Shown: positions 16,596 to 37,074 of the stretch, piece by piece
Numbering within the stretch: the first letter of the stretch is position 1
How the letters are laid out: the number at the start of each line of letters is the position of its first letter
Origin: Gemmatimonadota bacterium
Lineage (GTDB): Bacteria > Gemmatimonadota > Gemmatimonadetes > Gemmatimonadales > GWC2-71-9
NCBI GenBank assembly: GCA_022566515.1
Contig: JADFIT010000016.1
Location: forward strand, 1 to 37,079
Direction of reading: 5' to 3'
DNA: 37,079 nucleotides
The notes under the pieces: model-generated
Seen by the model: only the letters and a program-made list of their open reading frames with translations
Databases searched by the model: none
What the model was told of the DNA's origin: nothing
Position numbers and translations under genes: made by a program

Positions 16596-16828
16596 CAGGC
16601 CGTCCTGTCTGTGGTATCGTGGGGGTGCGGAGCTCCGCTTTGCCGCTGGTCGGGAAGGAATATGGTTCTTCCGGTAATTTCGGGGCAAGTGATTGCAGGG
16701 ACGATTCTCGGCCCTTCCACCCAGCGCCGGATGGCCATTCACTCCGGGCGCGGCGTGTGTCGCTGCTCCACGAGAGGGTTGAATCTCGACAACGCCGTGA
16801 CGACCTTTGTGGTCCACGAAGACCCAAC

Positions 16829-19977: not shown

Positions 19978-20087
19978 TCGTAACTCGTTGTATTAGTTAG
20001 AGTTAGATTCCTGGTGAGCTAGGTCACTGGGCATGTGGCTGGCATAAAACGGCGCACGGCCGTATCGATTTGGTGCAGACCTCTCTC

Positions 20088-20126
20088 TCCTTCCATCCTT
20101 CCGTCCTTCCGTCCTTCCGTCCTTCG
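20088..20126. repeat. 8-bp tandem repeat TCCTTCC(G/A)
   Basis: Three exact TCCTTCCG units (20096-20119) are flanked by a TCCTTCCA unit and a partial copy. It lies about 110-145 bp upstream of fadE in the 356-bp gap 19878-20233. Apart from this repeat and the hairpin at 19951, I see nothing definite in that gap. Confidence 0.7.
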
Positions 20127-20233
20127 CCAAGTAGCCGTGATTGGAACACTGCCGTACTATGTAATCGTTTCAGGTACGAGCATCCGGCCCGACGCGCCGG
20201 AGCCCTACTCATGTATGTGAAATTGGAGTTCCC

Positions 20234-22654: not shown

Positions 22655-22662
22655 CTGGGTGA

Positions 22663-22697
22663 CTAGTACTCTGGGTCGTAATTGCGGTAACGTATTC
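22663..22697. repeat. 35-bp dispersed repeat, copy 1
   Basis: It is identical base for base to 36990-37024 (starts CTAGTACTCTGGGTCG, ends GGTAACGTATTC). It lies 8 bp after the fadE stop, between convergent genes. Copy 2 likewise follows a gene end. Confidence 0.9.
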
Positions 22698-22766
22698 ACC
22701 GCTTCAATTCGGCGCAAAGGTCGAAGTGAAGCGAAAAGTACAGGAGTTCAGGAGAGAACGACCCGT

Positions 22767-22784
22767 TTATCCTGTCATCCTGTC
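22767..22784. repeat. 18-bp inverted partner of window-end repeat
   Basis: TTATCCTGTCATCCTGTC is the exact reverse complement of 37057-37074. This short sequence resembles widespread dispersed intergenic repeats of environmental genomes. The rest of the gap 22655-22896 shows only this, the 35-bp repeat and a doubled GACGTGTAC near 22850. Confidence 0.75.
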
Positions 22785-22896
22785 AAGAAGGGCTTTGCTC
22801 ACTTCTCATAGGTCATCGCGATCTAGTAGCGCCAATCTGAAGTTGCGACGTGTACGACGTGTACGGATGGGCAGCTGTTGCGCCCAAGACTGCAAT

Positions 22897-24276
22897 TCAA
22901 AAAGCCAAGTGAAGGGCGACGCGCGAGAATTTCTCGAAGAGCGGTAAATTGGGCGCCGATCGGCCACTCCACGTCGTTCCGATCATCAACATTGTGTTCG
23001 AGGCCAGCAACATCAACAGATCCGCGGAGTAGCGCTCGAAGCTCGTGGCCATGCCGGCTGGATAACCGTCCACATCTACCCGTTCGTAGCGGAATCCCGG
23101 CACCAACGCGGGGAGGATGTAGAGCTGGGCTTCAGCTGTGGTAACAATCGCAGAAGGATTGTTGAGCATGGATCTCTCTAACTTGTCATTGAAAAACTGC
23201 ACCGATGTGAGCAGGGACAAGTATCCGTTCTCCTGATCCCAGCGAAGGTCAAGCCCCCAGCGGTCGAAGTCATTCCCGTCATTCACAAATGACTCCGGCT
23301 CTGCCGGATCCATCAGAAAGCCGGATTTACCACTGTACACGAACCCTCCAAGAGAAAGGGCGCCGTGAAGCCACGTGTTGTAGTTGAGACGCGCATAATA
23401 GTCTTTGCTGTTGTTGAAATCATATTTACCACCGGACTCCTCGTACGCCTCCTCCAATGCGTGTACTACGTCGGCTACTGGCCCGCTTGCATCCTCGAGG
23501 GCCTCGAACGCTCCGCCTGGCTCTCCGTTGATCAGGCCGATGCTGTAGTCAAATTCCCCCGCGCCGCCAGGGCCTGTAATGCGGCCAAACGCTTCGATCC
23601 CCTTCTGATTGGGCGAGAATCCAAAGAAATTTTGCGCAGGTACGATGGGAAGAACGCCGTTCAGATAGGGCGTAATCCGGAGCAACCGGCGATGGTTCGA
23701 GAATGGGATGGCCCTCGGCTCGAACTGGCCGACGCGCAGGTTCAGTCCCAACGACTGGTTGTATTGCAAGAACAGCCGATCGATGCCCTCGAAACGACCA
23801 TCTTCGACCAGGGCGATGTTGCCAAAGAAAGAAAACTTCTCTCCCATTGCCCCACCGAAGATCAGCCCCACCGAACTGATTCCGGTAAACTCGTTTGTCA
23901 CTTCCTCGTCGCCGCGATAGATATAATCAGCGGTCACCTGAAAGGAGGCCACGGAGGTAGCGGGGATATCGATCCAAGGGATCCCACTAGGCTTTTTCGC
24001 TCCCGGTCCTCCGGCCCTTGGCCCTAACCGCAGAGGTTCTTCACCAGCGACCGTTGGCTCGGCACCTGGTAGACGGTAGCCCTTTGCCCGGAAAAGTCTG
24101 CCGTATTCAGTGAGCGCCGGAAACACCGTGTGGCAGGTGCTGCAGCTCAGCCCATAGCGACGCGCAAAGCTTGGGACTGGACCATCGGATTCCGTTCGTG
24201 CGGCCATCAACAACGGAGACATGACGAGTAACATGAGGCTCAGGGCGACTGAGCAGACAATTCTCACTCTGTTCAC
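22897..24276 (-). CDS. Cyc2-like monohaem cytochrome c-porin fusion
   Basis: A 459-residue outer-membrane protein with a GTG start preceded by AAGGA. Signal peptide about 1-26. Next is one c-type haem site C45-S-T-C48-H49 within P-S-F-A-R-R-Y-G-L-S-C-S-T-C-H-T-V-F-P-A-L (given residue by residue), then T-E-Y-G-R-L-F-R-A-K-G-Y. Then ~380 residues of beta-barrel porin with alternating aromatic strands. This N-terminal haem pattern plus barrel is the architecture of Cyc2, which moves electrons from extracellular Fe(II) through the outer membrane, and of related cytochrome-porins of unknown substrate. It is last in an operon with a dihaem cytochrome c and a cupredoxin. Iron oxidation is inference. 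Assignment to a Cyc2 clade needs a tree. Confidence 0.82.
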   Translation of the reverse strand: MNRVRIVCSVALSLMLLVMSPLLMAARTESDGPVPSFARRYGLSCSTCHTVFPALTEYGRLFRAKGYRLPGAEPTVAGEEPLRLGPRAGGPGAKKPSGIPWIDIPATSVASFQVTADYIYRGDEEVTNEFTGISSVGLIFGGAMGEKFSFFGNIALVEDGRFEGIDRLFLQYNQSLGLNLRVGQFEPRAIPFSNHRRLLRITPYLNGVLPIVPAQNFFGFSPNQKGIEAFGRITGPGGAGEFDYSIGLINGEPGGAFEALEDASGPVADVVHALEEAYEESGGKYDFNNSKDYYARLNYNTWLHGALSLGGFVYSGKSGFLMDPAEPESFVNDGNDFDRWGLDLRWDQENGYLSLLTSVQFFNDKLERSMLNNPSAIVTTAEAQLYILPALVPGFRYERVDVDGYPAGMATSFERYSADLLMLLASNTMLMIGTTWSGRSAPNLPLFEKFSRVALHLAF

Positions 24277-24335
24277 GGCGAGCTTCCTTTTGTTGTTAGT
24301 TGGACTATCGACCAGACAGCTGTTGGCTAACCAGC

Positions 24336-25088
24336 CTATTGCTGGATGATCGACAATAAGTAGTTCGTCAGATCCCAGATTTGATCCGCGGTCAACGCAT
24401 CCTGCCAGCTTGGCATCGGAGTGCCTCCGATTCCGACGGTGATGCTTCGGAAGATGTCCTGGGGCCGATTCCCCCCACGCCAGTTACGCGAAACAGTGAG
24501 GTCTGCTGGCACAATTGGATAATTCCAGTCGTCTGTTAATGTAGGGGAGGACGGACCATCCCCTTTCCCCAGCATGCCGTGACATTGCCAGCAATCGGCC
24601 TCGAGATAGAGCCGCCGGCCGCTTGCGACGCTTTCAGGGTACGGGAGCCTGGGTGCTCCAATAAGAATAGGTTCGAGCCGCTCTTCCTGGAACTTGCTTG
24701 ACAGTGTTTTCATGTACGCGACCAAGTTCCACCGGTCAGTTTCCTTCAAATTCGACCAGGACGGCATGGTCGTGCCAGGAAGGCCGCGAGTCAGGGTATC
24801 AAAGAGATCCTGGTCTGTGGGAAGGCCGCCAGTAGGCGTCGAGCGGATCTTGAAGATCCCCAAGCTCAGATCTCTGGGTTTCGGAAAAACGTAACGCGCT
24901 ACCGCTCCATCTCCCCTTCCGTTGGAACCATGACAAAAGACACACTTTCTGCGGTAGAGTCTCTTGCCGGCCTTTGCCGAGGAGGCCTCCAACAGCGGTG
25001 TGTCTGTCGGGACCTCCTGTCCCAGTGTGTCCGGGACCCCGACAGAGGCGAGCATTATCAGAGCGATAAAGGGGGCTTGTTTTCCCAT
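24336..25088 (-). CDS. Periplasmic dihaem cytochrome c
   Basis: A 250-residue exported cytochrome with two class I haem domains. Signal peptide about 1-23. The first haem site is C49-V-F-C52-H53 (with G-S-N-G-R-G-D-G after it), with probable axial ligand M108 in T-T-M-P-S-W. The second is C166-W-Q-C169-H170 (G-M-L-G-K-G-D-G), with axial Met in T-P-M-P-S-W. I start at 25088, where AGGAG precedes the ATG by 8 bases and the signal peptide begins. An ATG 11 codons earlier is less likely. It lies 63 bp after the cupredoxin gene and 59 bp before the cytochrome-porin gene. It is well placed to shuttle electrons between the outer-membrane protein and an inner-membrane oxidase. Confidence 0.93.
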   Translation of the reverse strand: MGKQAPFIALIMLASVGVPDTLGQEVPTDTPLLEASSAKAGKRLYRRKCVFCHGSNGRGDGAVARYVFPKPRDLSLGIFKIRSTPTGGLPTDQDLFDTLTRGLPGTTMPSWSNLKETDRWNLVAYMKTLSSKFQEERLEPILIGAPRLPYPESVASGRRLYLEADCWQCHGMLGKGDGPSSPTLTDDWNYPIVPADLTVSRNWRGGNRPQDIFRSITVGIGGTPMPSWQDALTADQIWDLTNYLLSIIQQ

Positions 25089-25151
25089 AGAAGGCACTCC
25101 TGGAACTCCGGTACTGCCCATTGCATTGTTATTTGATCTATATGGACAAAC

Positions 25152-25886
25152 TCACTGCGCCGGTGCGTATTCTACGTCCACCTTGGCATCGCTACCGGTG
25201 GCGACAACTACCTGTCGCGTTTGCATCCCGAGCGTCTCATGCCACAAGTTTAGGGTATATGTTCCCGGTGGAACGTCTTCCAACTCAAATGTTCCGTTCT
25301 CGTCGGTCACCGCGTAGTATGGATGAGCGGCAACGGCGATCCACGCCTCCATCCAGTTGTGAACGTCGCACCGCACGCGTATGATGTCGGGACGGCGGAA
25401 CGTTATGTTGAGCCGCTTCAGGAGCCTGGGTTGTGCCTTGTTGATTGGCCGGTTTTCTGAACTCTTCGTGTGGATGTTGTGAAGGATGCCGTCAGTGTTT
25501 ACGATGTGAAACGTTTCCCCCACGGGGACGATGAGCACGTGGGGATCGAACCGGCAACCGATCTGGTTGAGTTCTGTGGGATCACCTTCCTCCCACGCCT
25601 TACCCTCCGTGATGTCGCTGAGCCAGGCCACGACATTCTGTAATCCCGCAGTCCCGGTGGCGACGATGAGGCTCTCTTCAAACTTTGGTTCCTGGTCGCA
25701 GACCTCCAGGTCGTGTGCGACAACCAGCTCCTTTGGAGACGGTGCCTCGCCGGCATACGTCACGTGGCCGGTAAGAGCCACGCCATCCGTGACCGACCGC
25801 GCTACATAAGCTCCGAATTGCTGCGACACGCTCAACGATGGCGTGGCGCTAATCACCGGCAACAGCAACAAAATCCACCCTCGCAT
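25152..25886 (-). CDS. Cupredoxin-like copper protein with carboxypeptidase-regulatory-like tail
   Basis: A 244-residue exported protein, the first gene of the redox operon. After a signal peptide (about 1-21) comes a beta-rich domain with plausible type 1 copper ligands: H136 in I-L-H-N-I-H, then C173, H176 and M179 in R-C-D-V-H-N-W-M. The C-terminal ~50 residues (H-P-Y-Y-A-V-T-D-E-N-G-T-F ... V-P-P-G-T-Y-T-L) are a carboxypeptidase-regulatory-like fold. This pairing is found in MauL-type proteins and many environmental bacteria. Spacing between ligands is shorter than in plastocyanin (Cys-x2-His-x2-Met), so the copper site may be atypical. Two dyad sites stand upstream. GGGAG precedes the ATG. 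Confidence 0.85.
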   Translation of the reverse strand: MRGWILLLLPVISATPSLSVSQQFGAYVARSVTDGVALTGHVTYAGEAPSPKELVVAHDLEVCDQEPKFEESLIVATGTAGLQNVVAWLSDITEGKAWEEGDPTELNQIGCRFDPHVLIVPVGETFHIVNTDGILHNIHTKSSENRPINKAQPRLLKRLNITFRRPDIIRVRCDVHNWMEAWIAVAAHPYYAVTDENGTFELEDVPPGTYTLNLWHETLGMQTRQVVVATGSDAKVDVEYAPAQ

Positions 25887-27939: not shown

Positions 27940-29088
27940 CTACGACTTGGGAACCTCTTTCCTTGGATCGACGAAGGGTTTCGGAACCACGGTAGCTTGG
28001 CGGTCTCCCGCTGGCGTTGCCACGGTCAGTGTGGATCCGGTCTCCGAGGACTCAATCGGCACCATTGCATAGCCGATGTTCTTTTCGAGGCGGGGTGAGT
28101 ACACGGCTGATGTCACACGTCCCACCTCCCGTCCGTCCACACTTACACTCCAAGGTGTCATGTTGAGATCGAGCGGGTCTCCCGCAATCTCCACTCCCAC
28201 CAACTTGCGCTTGGCACCCTTTGCCTTGATGCGCCTCAGAGCCTCTTTGCCGACGAAGTCGGCCTCCTGCTCCAAATCCACCAACCACCCCAAGCCCGCT
28301 TCGTAGGGGTTGGTGTCCAGCGTGACGTCGATGCCGTAGTTGAGGATTCCCGCCTCGATGCGGCGGATGTCCGACGGACCGGTGGCTGAAATGTTGTATG
28401 GTTCGCCGGCGGCCATCACGCGGTCCCACAGCTCTTCACCCCGACTGCCGTCGCGCAAATAGATCTCGAACCCGACCTCGCCGGTCCAACCCGTGCGGGT
28501 AACGATGACCGGGATGCCGTCCAGGTCTCTCTCCAGGAAATAGTAGTACGCCAGTTCCAAGACTTCGTCTCCGAACAGCGATTGCATGACGAGTTTTGAC
28601 TTGGGTCCCTGAATCTGCATGGGCGAGACATCGGGCTCGCGGATCTGGACGTCCATGCCGGAATTGTGGGCGATTCCCATGGCCCACAAGAGCAAATCAC
28701 TGTCGGCGACGGCCAGCCAAAAGTGGTTTTCTCCGAGACGGAGGAGGACCGGGTCGTTGATGATGCCTCCGTCATCCGCCGTGATGACTACATACTTCCC
28801 TTGACCGACCTTGCACTTGGTGAGGTCCCGGGGCGTCAGCAAGTTGGTGAAGGCAAAGCCGTCCGGCCCTGTTATCTCCACTTGGCGCTCGACGCTCACG
28901 TCCCACACCGTCACATCGTTCAGCAGCTTCCAATATTCCTTCTCCAGATCGTCGTATGCGGTGGGGAGGAGCATGTGGTTGTACACCGTGTAGCTGGAGC
29001 ACCCGCCTTCGAGCGTAGCGTTGAAGAACGGTGACCGGCGGAGGCGTGCTCCACGCTGAATCTTTGCCATGTCGAACAAAGTCGTCAT
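27940..29088 (-). CDS. DmdA/GcvT-family tetrahydrofolate methyl- or aminomethyltransferase
   Basis: A 382-residue protein of the glycine-cleavage T family, closest by eye to the DMSP-demethylase (DmdA) branch: S-Y-T-V-Y-N-H-M-L-L-P-T near the start, V-W-D-V-S-V-E-R-Q-V-E, L-L-T-P-R-D-L, L-A-V-A-D-S-D-L-L-L-W, D-V-S-P-M-Q-I-Q-G-P-K-S, and G-W-T-G-E-V-G-F-E-I-Y. Such enzymes pass a methyl or methylene group to tetrahydrofolate. DMSP is only one possible donor, as many DmdA-like paralogues act on other compounds. The ATG at 29088 follows GGGGAG, and earlier codons are unlike the family. It follows the Mo-oxidoreductase/desulfurase gene by 73 bp, probably as one transcript. Confidence 0.87.
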   Translation of the reverse strand: MTTLFDMAKIQRGARLRRSPFFNATLEGGCSSYTVYNHMLLPTAYDDLEKEYWKLLNDVTVWDVSVERQVEITGPDGFAFTNLLTPRDLTKCKVGQGKYVVITADDGGIINDPVLLRLGENHFWLAVADSDLLLWAMGIAHNSGMDVQIREPDVSPMQIQGPKSKLVMQSLFGDEVLELAYYYFLERDLDGIPVIVTRTGWTGEVGFEIYLRDGSRGEELWDRVMAAGEPYNISATGPSDIRRIEAGILNYGIDVTLDTNPYEAGLGWLVDLEQEADFVGKEALRRIKAKGAKRKLVGVEIAGDPLDLNMTPWSVSVDGREVGRVTSAVYSPRLEKNIGYAMVPIESSETGSTLTVATPAGDRQATVVPKPFVDPRKEVPKS

Positions 29089-29161: not shown

Positions 29162-32100
29162 CTACTTGCACGGCAGGAACCGGACTGTGGTTTCCAGTTC
29201 CAGTAGGACTTGGGCCAGAGCGGTGACCGTGTCGTCGATGTCTCTCTGGCTGGTGTCGTGAGCCAAGGAAAACCGCACAGAACAGTGTGCCTCGGTTTCG
29301 CTCCGTCCCATGGCGAGGAGCACATGCGTGGGCTGGGGAGAACCAGATTTGCATGCCGATCCCGAAGACAGCGATACACCGTGCTGATCCAGTGCGACGA
29401 CGAGGGATTCGCCCCTCAGTCCCGGCAATGTCAGATTGAGTATGTTGGGAGTGCGGTCCTCGGGATGGCCATTGAGGTGTGCTTCGGGTACGAGTTCTCT
29501 GATGCCGGCTTCGAGCCGGTCACGGAGTCGTTTCACCTCATACCAATTCTGGAGGTTGTGCCTAGCGAGTTCGGCAGCCTTGCCCAAGCCTACTATCGCA
29601 GGAACGTTTTCCGTCCCAGCTCTCATCCCACTTTCCTGGGCCCCACCGTGTACCAACGCTTCGAGTCGGACGCCCTTCTTTACGTACAGCGCGCCGACAC
29701 CCTTTGGGCCGTGAAACTTGTGCCCTGAGAGCGTGAGCAGATCGACATCGAGATCGTCGGTGTCGACCCGAATCTTGCCCACGGCCTGTACGGCGTCGGT
29801 GTGGAACAGAACTCCCCGCTCGTGCGCGATTTCACACAACTGGCGAATAGGCTGTATCGTTCCCACCTCGTTGTTCGCCATCATGATGGAAACGAGTATC
29901 GTGTCATCGGTAATGCTTGCGGCAAGGTCCGTCGGATTCACCATGCCGACCTCGTCCACCGAAAGGTATGTAATGCAGTAACCGGTCTGCTCGAGAAACT
30001 TGCAGGTCTGGAGCACAGCCGGATGTTCGATTGTGCTGGTCACGATGTGATTGCCCCGGTCCCGGTACGCGCTTGCTATTCCTTTGAGGGCCATGTTATC
30101 CGATTCCGAGCCACCACCGGTAAAGATGAGCCTGCGTGGTCGGCAGTTGATCAACTTCGACAAGTGGCGGCGCGCGGTTTCCAGCGCCTCCCTTGCGCAC
30201 CGCCCCGCGCCGTGGATGCTGGATGGGTTGCCGAGTTGCTCGGCTAGGTACGGCTGCATCGCGTCGCGAACAGCCGGATCCACGCGCGTAGTGGCGCTGT
30301 TATCGAGGTAAATACGCCGTTGTGGCGGGAGCGGCTCCTGCGCCACTGCTCGGTTGAATGTCACGCGCTTTTCAGCCGTACGGCGTGATTCCTCTGTGCC
30401 GTCGCAGATCTTCACCACGTCGCAAAGCAGGGCCTTGTAAACCGGAAACCCTGAGATTTCGTCGTAGTTGGAGAGGTCGGTGAGTAGATTCACGTTCCAC
30501 TGCTGCCAGGCATCGGATCCGACCGGCGTGCCTCCTCCCATGCTACACTCGACCGATCCTGGTGCGATGTCCTCCGTGACCCGCGCACGAAACGGGACTG
30601 TCCCTCTGGGGGTGCGCACCTCAACCAGATCTCCATTTTGGATCCCTCGAACGTCAGCGTCATCATTGTTTATCTCTACGGTCGGCTCGGGATGATCTCT
30701 CGTCAGGCCTTCGATCCCGTGATGCTGCGATCGGAAGTCGGTGTGCGGGCGCGCGCCCGAGTTGAACACCAAGGGGAACTGTTGCAAAAGCTCCGGGCTG
30801 TTCAGCGGGCCCTCGCGTGGTTCAGTGTACTTGGGGAGAGGTTCGTAGCCGTAATCGGCGAGTATGGTGGAGTGGATCTCGAACTTGCCGGTCGGCGTAT
30901 CAAAACCCGGTGCGCCGTCCGAGCGAAGACCGCCTTTCTCCCACTTCCGATACTCCATCATCGGTGCGGGTAGCTTGACCGATCCACCGGCCGCCCTGAC
31001 ATCCTCGAGACTGTAACCCGATCCCTGGAGCGCCTGGCGGATCATTTTCTCTTCGGTCTGGGGAAATCGGTCGCCGTAACCCAACCTCTTGGCGAGTTCC
31101 GCCATGATGAGGTAGTCGTTACGCGCTTCGCCCACCGGATCGATCAGGGCTTGGCGCAATTTGAAGATCGGACCGTATGTTACGTACGAATTGATCTCGA
31201 ACATGGTGGTTGCCGGTAGCACGATGTCTGCATAGGCGGCGTCTGCAGTGAGTTGCCGGTCAATGCATACCAGAAAATCCAGTGTCGCCAGCGTTTCCCG
31301 CCATATGGAAGTTTGCGGCCACGAGGTTAGGATCGACGCTCCGTGGATAATCAACGCACGAATTCGGTACGGTTCTCCTTTGAGGACAGAATCTACCAAT
31401 CCGCTTGCATGGGATTCACCTCTGTAATCGCTATAGAGGGGAAACTTGTCGCGAGCGATGGCGCGATCGATGGCTGGGTTCGGGACGTTGCAACCATGGT
31501 TGATCGGGAATTGACTGCCTTGCATCGCGAGACCGATTCCTCCCGGCACGTCGAGCTGCCCGGCGAGGGCGAACAGCGTGAGTACGGCGCGGATGGCCTG
31601 AATGCCACTGTTGGAATATTCCAGCCCGGTGTACATGATGGGGCAGGCTCCGGTGGCGTTGCTGATGCGCCGAGCAAGCTCCCGAATCGTTTGTTCGGGT
31701 ACGCCGGTGATGTCCTCGACGACTTGCGGGCGGAAGTGTTGCACGTAAGCCGTAAACTCGTCGAACCCGTGGCACCAGTTTTCCGCGAAGCGCTCGTCGT
31801 ACAGGTCTTCCTCGATCATCACCTGCGTCATTCCCAGGGCCAGTGCTGCATCTGTGCCCGGCCGGATGGGGATCCACTTGGCGTTGGTGCGGCGCGCCGC
31901 ATCGGTCCGCCGGGGATCGATGACGATGACCTCGGCGCCGCGTTTCGCTGCCGCCTCTAGCCGATGCATGTCCAAGGGTGGTGAATCTGTTGCTGGATTG
32001 GCTCCCCAGACCAGGAGTAGTTCGGCACTCTCGATGTCTGTGAACATATTGACCAGCATCCGCCCCATCGTCACATGCGGCGCAAGCATGGCGAAAGAGA

Positions 32101-32572
32101 CATAGCACAACGCACCGACGCCCATCGTGTTGGGGGAACCGAAGGGAAAGAGGACGTTCGATGCCGATGAGACGGCTACACCCTCGGGCTTGTACATGTC
32201 GCACAGTGACAACTCGAACGCGCCCCTGCCCGTGTAGATGGCGACGGCTTCCGGTCCGGATTCCTGCTTGATCTCAGTCAGTTGCTGAACGATACACTCG
32301 TAGGCTTGGTCCCAGCTGATTCGCTCGAATTCGTGTGTCCCCTTTGGACCGGTTCGCCGCAAGGGATAGCGGAGTCGATGTTCGGAGTGTACGATTTCGG
32401 GAGCGTACCGACCTCGGTGGCAGAGCATTCCCAACGGATGCCCATGGTCGGCCTTTATACTGACCAGCCGTCGTTCTTGGACACCGACCTCCACCCAACA
32501 TCCGGCCGGACAGATGCCGCAGATGCCTTTCGCGAACTCGGTCGCGGGGAGTTCACTCACTGGTTTTCCCAC
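29162..32572 (-). CDS. Molybdopterin oxidoreductase fused to NifS/IscS-type cysteine desulfurase
   Basis: A single 1,136-codon frame. Residues 1 to ~720 are a molybdenum bis-MGD oxidoreductase: the [4Fe-4S] site C18-x2-C21-x3-C25-x25-C51, F-G-S-P-N-T with C156 as likely Mo ligand, V-W-G-A-N-P-A-T-D-S-P, D-P-R-R-T-D, and the C-terminal dinucleotide-binding domain. After a ~30-residue linker, residues ~752-1136 form a full cysteine desulfurase: Y-L-D-N-S-A-T-T, H850 in I-E-H-P, PLP lysine K952 in S-G-H-K-F-H-G-P-K, and catalytic C1074 in S-S-G-S-A-C-K-S-G. All key residues of both halves are present. IscS supplies sulfur to formate dehydrogenase's cofactor through FdhD, so the tail may do this in cis. 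The start is GTG with a poor ribosome site. No partner subunit is nearby. Confidence 0.9.
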   Translation of the reverse strand: MGKPVSELPATEFAKGICGICPAGCWVEVGVQERRLVSIKADHGHPLGMLCHRGRYAPEIVHSEHRLRYPLRRTGPKGTHEFERISWDQAYECIVQQLTEIKQESGPEAVAIYTGRGAFELSLCDMYKPEGVAVSSASNVLFPFGSPNTMGVGALCYVSFAMLAPHVTMGRMLVNMFTDIESAELLLVWGANPATDSPPLDMHRLEAAAKRGAEVIVIDPRRTDAARRTNAKWIPIRPGTDAALALGMTQVMIEEDLYDERFAENWCHGFDEFTAYVQHFRPQVVEDITGVPEQTIRELARRISNATGACPIMYTGLEYSNSGIQAIRAVLTLFALAGQLDVPGGIGLAMQGSQFPINHGCNVPNPAIDRAIARDKFPLYSDYRGESHASGLVDSVLKGEPYRIRALIIHGASILTSWPQTSIWRETLATLDFLVCIDRQLTADAAYADIVLPATTMFEINSYVTYGPIFKLRQALIDPVGEARNDYLIMAELAKRLGYGDRFPQTEEKMIRQALQGSGYSLEDVRAAGGSVKLPAPMMEYRKWEKGGLRSDGAPGFDTPTGKFEIHSTILADYGYEPLPKYTEPREGPLNSPELLQQFPLVFNSGARPHTDFRSQHHGIEGLTRDHPEPTVEINNDDADVRGIQNGDLVEVRTPRGTVPFRARVTEDIAPGSVECSMGGGTPVGSDAWQQWNVNLLTDLSNYDEISGFPVYKALLCDVVKICDGTEESRRTAEKRVTFNRAVAQEPLPPQRRIYLDNSATTRVDPAVRDAMQPYLAEQLGNPSSIHGAGRCAREALETARRHLSKLINCRPRRLIFTGGGSESDNMALKGIASAYRDRGNHIVTSTIEHPAVLQTCKFLEQTGYCITYLSVDEVGMVNPTDLAASITDDTILVSIMMANNEVGTIQPIRQLCEIAHERGVLFHTDAVQAVGKIRVDTDDLDVDLLTLSGHKFHGPKGVGALYVKKGVRLEALVHGGAQESGMRAGTENVPAIVGLGKAAELARHNLQNWYEVKRLRDRLEAGIRELVPEAHLNGHPEDRTPNILNLTLPGLRGESLVVALDQHGVSLSSGSACKSGSPQPTHVLLAMGRSETEAHCSVRFSLAHDTSQRDIDDTVTALAQVLLELETTVRFLPCK

Positions 32573-34357: not shown

Positions 34358-35608
34358 CTACTCAGTGTGTTGCAGCGTAACGAGGTCGGGCTGCTCGTGC
34401 TGTGGAATGGCATGCTCCTTGGGCACGGTTCGCATGAATTGCCCGTAGTGGATGCACTCCTCCAGCCGACAGGACCAGGCCAACTCACCGTTCCAGACCG
34501 TCATGTCCGGGCAACCGTCGCACATGTCCTGACGTCCATCGTCTAGCACTTCGACGGGCGTAATTACCATGATCGACTGGATGTAGAGGCGACGGAAGAG
34601 GAGACTTGGGGAGCGCAGGGCGCGCCAAAGCATCCGGCGGAGGCCGCGATCGAAGGGCCACAGCAAGAGCATGGATCTACCACGCCGGACCATCGCCGGC
34701 GGCGCATACGCCATGTACCTACCCGTGGTGAGATGATTCCACACCTGGGCCATCTCTACCATCTTGTGGCCGAGATAGCCGTAGATGCGCTTGCGGGTCC
34801 CCACCCGGACCGTCAAGAGCCACTTGAATGAATCAGGTCTCTCGGTGCCGTTGAGATATGCGGCTGGTGCAAAATCCGGCCAACGCTCCCGGATCTTGGC
34901 CACGACGTCGTGGGCCGAAATATCGACCCTCTGGCCGGTGTCTTCGTACGTGAGAGCGCTTACGTCCACCTTGCGTGCGCCGGCGTAATAGTCGAATCGT
35001 TTTGGATCGGCGGGTTCGCGGTAGCAGATGAAAACCATCACGTGAACGATGTCGATGTGCTCCTGTGCCCAGGCAACCAGATCAGGGATGCTGTCTAGCG
35101 TGTCCTCGTAGATGGTGGAGTTGAAGGAACAGGTGAGACCTCCCACCCGCGCGACCATCTCGGCAAAGTGGAGCCTCAAGGCGTTGTGTTCCTGTTCTGT
35201 CTTGTTCTTCCACTTTGGACGATGCTGCTTGCTGTCGATGTGGAAGGTGAGCCCGAAGAGGCCGGCACGCTTCATTTCACGGAGGAGATCCTCGGTGAGG
35301 GCGAGGCCGTTTGTGTTGAGGATGGGCTTCCAGCCACGATCGGCCACCATCCGTACGATGTCCACCACTTGTGGGTGAGTGAGGGGATCCCCACCGGCTA
35401 TGGAAATGCCGTCTATCTTGCGGTAACGCTCGAAGACGTCGAGGTCTTTCCCTATCTCTTCGAGCGACTTGTGTTCGTTTATGTTCGCCCGGTAACACCC
35501 TTCGCACGCGAGGTTGCACTTCATCGTGGGCTCGAGCCAGGCGATGGCGTTGTCCGAGAGGTTCCACGGAAGTCTATACAGTTCTCGGTGGTCGAGTGCT
35601 GCCGTCAT
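34358..35608 (-). CDS. Radical SAM enzyme with SPASM-like C-terminal cysteines
   Basis: A 416-residue radical SAM protein. The cluster motif is C31-N-L-A-C35-E-G-C38-Y-R (CX3CX2C), followed by G-G-D-P-L-T-H-P, the S-adenosylmethionine-binding G-G-x-P step, and L-N-T-N-G. The C-terminus has C-D-G-C-P-D and S-C-R-L-E-E-C, which look like ligands for an auxiliary iron-sulfur cluster. Between them is a hydrophobic/basic stretch (R-S-M-L-L-L-W-P-F-D-R-G-L-R) that may contact a membrane or lipid substrate. GAGG lies 7 bases before the ATG. It is the first gene of a two-gene operon with the B12-type enzyme, and divergent from the sugar kinase. The product is unknown. Confidence 0.88.
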   Translation of the reverse strand: MTAALDHRELYRLPWNLSDNAIAWLEPTMKCNLACEGCYRANINEHKSLEEIGKDLDVFERYRKIDGISIAGGDPLTHPQVVDIVRMVADRGWKPILNTNGLALTEDLLREMKRAGLFGLTFHIDSKQHRPKWKNKTEQEHNALRLHFAEMVARVGGLTCSFNSTIYEDTLDSIPDLVAWAQEHIDIVHVMVFICYREPADPKRFDYYAGARKVDVSALTYEDTGQRVDISAHDVVAKIRERWPDFAPAAYLNGTERPDSFKWLLTVRVGTRKRIYGYLGHKMVEMAQVWNHLTTGRYMAYAPPAMVRRGRSMLLLWPFDRGLRRMLWRALRSPSLLFRRLYIQSIMVITPVEVLDDGRQDMCDGCPDMTVWNGELAWSCRLEECIHYGQFMRTVPKEHAIPQHEQPDLVTLQHTE

Positions 35609-36989: not shown

Positions 36990-37024
36990 CTAGTACTCTG
37001 GGTCGTAATTGCGGTAACGTATTC
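36990..37024. repeat. 35-bp dispersed repeat, copy 2
   Basis: It is identical to 22663-22697, in the same orientation, and lies 12 bp after the sugar-kinase stop. Confidence 0.9.
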
Positions 37025-37056
37025 CAAGCAGACCGCGGAGGACGCAGAGGTTTTTG

Positions 37057-37074
37057 GACAGGATGACAGGATAA
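37057..37074. repeat. 18-bp repeat at window end, inverted relative to 22767-22784
   Basis: GACAGGATGACAGGATAA is the reverse complement of 22767-22784. It is preceded by GACCGCGGAGGACGCAGAGG, a phrase that looks like widespread dispersed intergenic repeats. The window ends five bases later. Confidence 0.75.

Follow-up and report, generated by a model that had tools for sequence, protein, structure and literature searches.

What a protein does that joins a molybdenum oxidoreductase to a cysteine desulfurase in one chain is the question raised by a gene in the window, the whole 37,079-nucleotide stretch of contig JADFIT010000016.1 from a Gemmatimonadota bacterium that was analysed here. The first-pass annotation had described this gene as a single uninterrupted frame, which was borne out by 1136 open codons and by a Pfam domain search that placed a bis-MGD (DMSO-reductase-family) domain before a NifS/IscS-type desulfurase (Molybdop_Fe4S4 at residues 13-63, Molybdopterin at 66-496, Molydop_binding at 608-714, and Aminotran_5 at 754-1113). 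The cluster cysteines, C156, K952, and C1074, likewise reported as intact, were all present and invariant wherever homologues covered them. The features are given below, with conservation counted over the homologues covering each position; MES stands for metallopterin-dependent ergothioneine synthase.

29162..32572 (-), MES-type fusion protein, 1136 aa, GTG start, stop codon included in the coordinates
30425..32572 (-), N-terminal bis-MGD/[4Fe-4S] domain, residues 1-716 (PF04879, PF00384, PF01568)
30317..30424 (-), inter-domain linker, residues 717-752, whose sequence and length differ among homologues
29165..30316 (-), C-terminal NifS/IscS-type cysteine desulfurase, residues 753-1136 (PF00266 and NifS/IscS models)
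32420..32521 (-), cluster cysteines C18, C21, C25, and C51, invariant in 46/46, equivalent to Cys14, 17, 21, and 48 of Caldithrix abyssi MES
32105..32107 (-), C156, predicted Mo/W ligand, invariant in 46/46, equivalent to Cys153 of C. abyssi MES
29717..29719 (-), K952, PLP lysine, invariant in 44/44
29351..29353 (-), C1074, desulfurase persulfide cysteine, invariant in 42/42
29282..29284 (-), C1097, MES-conserved cysteine, Ser in homologue L046
29168..29170 (-), C1135, penultimate residue in the 'VRFLPCK' tail, near-invariant in MES, putative second stop of a persulfide relay

Judged from its sequence, the window protein is very probably an MES, a kind of enzyme that has already been described; matching domains, residues, conservation, and an association with EgtD support this reading, from which we infer the same function for the window copy. 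Beliaeva and Seebeck (2022) identified the same fusion from C. abyssi as an enzyme that moves sulfur from cysteine onto trimethylhistidine to yield the antioxidant ergothioneine without oxygen (PMC9516567), so that this order of domains, for which the first-pass annotation knew of no described enzyme, was already on record. The C. abyssi enzyme was active in E. coli, where K952, C1074, C1135, and the Mo ligand C153 were each required, C153S abolishing activity, whereas C1097 was dispensable with a two-fold effect only (PMC9516567). Sulfur transfer was limited to a single chain, with the fused desulfurase supplying the Mo centre of its own polypeptide, and a desulfurase-dead variant still swapped sulfur between ergothioneine and trimethylhistidine, indicating that the sulfur is a substrate (PMC9516567).

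By the same scheme, a persulfide would form on C1074 when the C-terminal PLP desulfurase of the window protein draws sulfur from L-cysteine. The mobile tail cysteine C1135 would then carry that sulfur, without leaving the polypeptide, to the bis-MGD centre, in which C156 holds the Mo (or W). From the metal centre the sulfur would pass to the imidazole C2 of N-alpha-trimethylhistidine, supplied by an EgtD encoded elsewhere in the window genome, giving ergothioneine. The Mo-bound sulfur is most likely a substrate of every turnover rather than a one-time maturation that replaces FdhD. The first-pass proposal of self-sulfuration was thus right in that the desulfurase feeds the Mo centre of the same chain (PMC9516567) and wrong in that the sulfur leaves as ergothioneine instead of staying as a permanent Mo=S ligand.

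The fusion itself is real and widespread. A search with the Mo domain alone against GTDB species genomes returned 51 relatives, and the homologue set combined relatives with >50% identity and copies taken from genomes of the same family. The two-domain order recurred in 38 further full-length homologues from unrelated assemblies, each running in one frame from the Mo domain into the desulfurase and across the linker, which rules out an assembly chimera or a frameshift as its origin; of the remaining homologues, L068 is frameshifted and the others are truncated where their contigs stop. The hosts span many phyla of bacteria as well as some archaea, including Gemmatimonadota, Latescibacterota, Calditrichota, KSB1, Chloroflexota, Acidobacteriota, Planctomycetota, Bdellovibrionota, Thermodesulfobacteriota, Nitrospirota, Pseudomonadota, methanogens, and others. 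The window copy groups with the other Gemmatimonadota copies (72-77% identity), and L109, from the Calditrichota phylum (as genome G066), carries all eight published MES residue positions exactly and shares 61% identity with the window protein. The V-R-F-L-P-C-K/R tail is conserved at the ends of fused homologues and was absent from 26/26 stand-alone desulfurases of relatives; in this comparison, the C1135 tail is specific to the fused proteins. Both C1135 and the EgtD link had been overlooked in the first-pass annotation.

Profile and structure comparisons described the two halves further. Among NCBIfam entries, the desulfurase half scored best against the models for IscS and NifS, the latter at 505 bits with a cut-off of 531. 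For the Mo half, the best Mo-family NCBIfam model was TIGR01591 (Fdh-alpha), yet at 294 bits against a cut-off of 666, and other DMSO-reductase-family models also scored weakly. Acetylene hydratase (2E7Z) was the top Mo-enzyme match to the window protein in the PDB by phmmer and ranked first in Foldseek for its AlphaFold model; it is the nearest fold of the MES Mo domain in the published account also (PMC9516567). The PDB copy searched yielded no solved structure of a full-length MES. The AlphaFold model (mean pLDDT 81.5, pTM 0.63) has low pLDDT in the linker at 737-749 and values <50 at the C1074 loop and C1135 tail, so that it cannot place the docking of the relay cysteine. The protein lacks a Tat-like N-terminus, suggesting a cytoplasmic location.

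Ergothioneine synthases act on trimethylhistidine, which is produced by the histidine-specific methyltransferase EgtD. A Methyltransf_33 gene was the sole recurrent neighbour of the fusion across 22 homologous loci, and 4/4 sampled neighbours of this kind scored above the EgtD equivalog cut-off TIGR03438. EgtD was found in 39/46 homologue genomes; the seven in which it was not found are mostly incomplete metagenome-assembled genomes, with one exception, the Neomarinimicrobiota genome of L046, whose assembly is titled as a chromosome. No EgtD is present in the genomes of the two partial relatives L071 and L075. The window genome (G000) encodes EgtD on a separate contig, not adjoining MES (G000:C45:169-1074, 307.6 bits against the TIGR03438 cut-off of 290.9), and also the O2-dependent EgtB (G000:C51:14532-15746, 560.8 bits, cut-off 360). 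Ergothioneine could therefore arise there without the window MES, which counts against the reading. The published trend that MES genomes hold no other trimethylhistidine-sulfurating enzyme, a trend and not a strictly defining property, does not extend to this genome. Across the comparison, EgtB occurred in 4/43 EgtD-positive genomes with MES versus 17/21 EgtD-positive relatives without it (Fisher p about 2e-8, uncorrected for shared ancestry; 3/17 lie below the EgtB cut-off). The scarcity of EgtB beside MES fits MES standing in for EgtB. All three genes occur together in G000, G060 (Bdellovibrionales), G061 (Thiohalomonas denitrificans), and G085 (an Actinobacteria bin).

These data bear on two other accounts of the protein. 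Its Mo half could belong to a formate-dehydrogenase-like oxidoreductase whose built-in IscS sulfurates the Mo cofactor, so that the IscS-FdhD route is bypassed, as first proposed; the rank of the Fdh-alpha model would agree with this, and sulfur passing from a desulfurase to Mo has precedents in FdhD and Aba3/MOCOS (PMC9516567). The score, however, falls far under the model's cut-off, no electron-transfer partner subunit directly adjoins the gene, and both the EgtD association and the published family function point elsewhere. The Mo ligand is followed by an invariant Tyr157 in the homologues, whereas the ligand Cys/Sec of E. coli FdhH is followed by the catalytic His141. The expected loss of fdhD did not appear either: the gene is present in the window genome and in 24/46 homologue genomes, neither consistently absent nor consistently present, so that replacement of FdhD was rejected. 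This account is accordingly extremely improbable. Scarcely more credit is due to an MES-like enzyme of the same mechanism that sulfurates a different heterocycle in the Gemmatimonadota lineage. It would make sense of an EgtB already in the window genome and an EgtD distant from MES, and the authors of the C. abyssi study suggested that other Mo enzymes may sulfurate heterocycles (PMC9516567). Against it, identity to the other Gemmatimonadota copies is high, the catalytic cysteines and lysine are unchanged, and the same-family genomes G008, G009, and G023 contain MES and EgtD and no EgtB, showing that the enzyme fits ergothioneine synthesis in close relatives.

With ergothioneine synthesis as the favoured reading, the setting of the enzyme can be reconsidered. 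MES was published as confined to anaerobes (PMC9516567). Haem-copper oxidase genes were present in 28/39 MES genomes tested, including the window genome, as counted with Pfam COX1, which can include NO reductases. The terminal oxidases and EgtB in MES genomes call the published restriction into question, and judged from the genomes MES is not confined to anaerobes, with the caveat that most of these genomes are metagenome bins. A desulfurase-free form of the Mo half also exists: three alphaproteobacterial genomes, of the order of the Kiloniellales bin G083, encode relatives of 731-765 aa with 52-55% identity that end without a desulfurase and keep the cluster cysteines and the G-V-G-x-L-C-Y motif.

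L120:3498-5795 (-), stand-alone Mo-module relative
L121:8706-10943 (-), stand-alone Mo-module relative
L122:399-2594 (+), stand-alone Mo-module relative

Unrelated genes surround them; those that could be identified are mostly of the housekeeping kind, and mutS and glnD are examples of the flanking genes. We tentatively suggest, with some doubt, that MES may act beside EgtB in oxygen-exposed bacteria, placing O2-independent and O2-dependent routes in one cell, and that the alphaproteobacterial Mo branch may use another sulfur donor or substrate. The present analysis corrects the function from cofactor self-maturation to ergothioneine synthesis in a characterised family, and extends published MES in its range across Gemmatimonadota and many phyla, in oxidase-bearing genomes, and in the four genomes with EgtB, which are a place to ask why one cell keeps two routes.

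The surroundings of the gene were also considered.

27940-29088 (-), DmdA/GcvT-like aminomethyltransferase (DMSP demethylase model 392 bits, cut-off 410)

This gene has the same orientation as MES and begins 73 bases downstream of it; it was set aside as an operon clue to MES function because G043 and G003 have it on other contigs. An HpnH-like radical SAM gene lies near MES in three Gemmatimonadota (window 34358-35608 (-); L033 6646-7860; L035 5268-6518). Synteny extends in G043 to a cytochrome c gene and neighbours from window 22897-25886. The contig is unlikely to be a bin contaminant, since it shares short dispersed repeats with many other G000 contigs and has a stretch 89-93% identical to the same-genus G003. 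The repeats (about 40-100 bp; window 36990-37073, 16660-16763, 20080-20130, and 22660-22820) have many copies across the genome's contigs, and those at 20080-20130, 22660-22820, and 36990-37073 occur too in the same-genus G002 and/or G003.

Judged by published architecture, length, and residue positions, the window protein resembles C. abyssi MES in domain order, in length, in K952, C1074, C1097, and C1135 at identical numbers, in four cluster cysteines, in a Cys Mo ligand (C156 versus C153), and in the EgtD association. It differs in that its genome also encodes EgtB and haem-copper oxidases, with EgtD on another contig. Acetylene hydratase (2E7Z) shares the N-terminal fold, the Cys ligand, and one [4Fe-4S] cluster, whereas identity is ~25%, the desulfurase is lacking, and a different reaction is catalysed. 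The EgtB and EanB routes share the product and the EgtD-made substrate with MES, although EgtB (O2-dependent non-haem iron) and EanB (a rhodanese-like polysulfide enzyme) are unrelated proteins. The IscS-FdhD-formate dehydrogenase and Aba3/MOCOS systems resemble MES in that a cysteine desulfurase supplies the sulfur of a Mo cofactor. In those systems the sulfido ligand is put in place a single time, during maturation, whereas every turnover of MES uses it up and the transfer stays inside a single chain.
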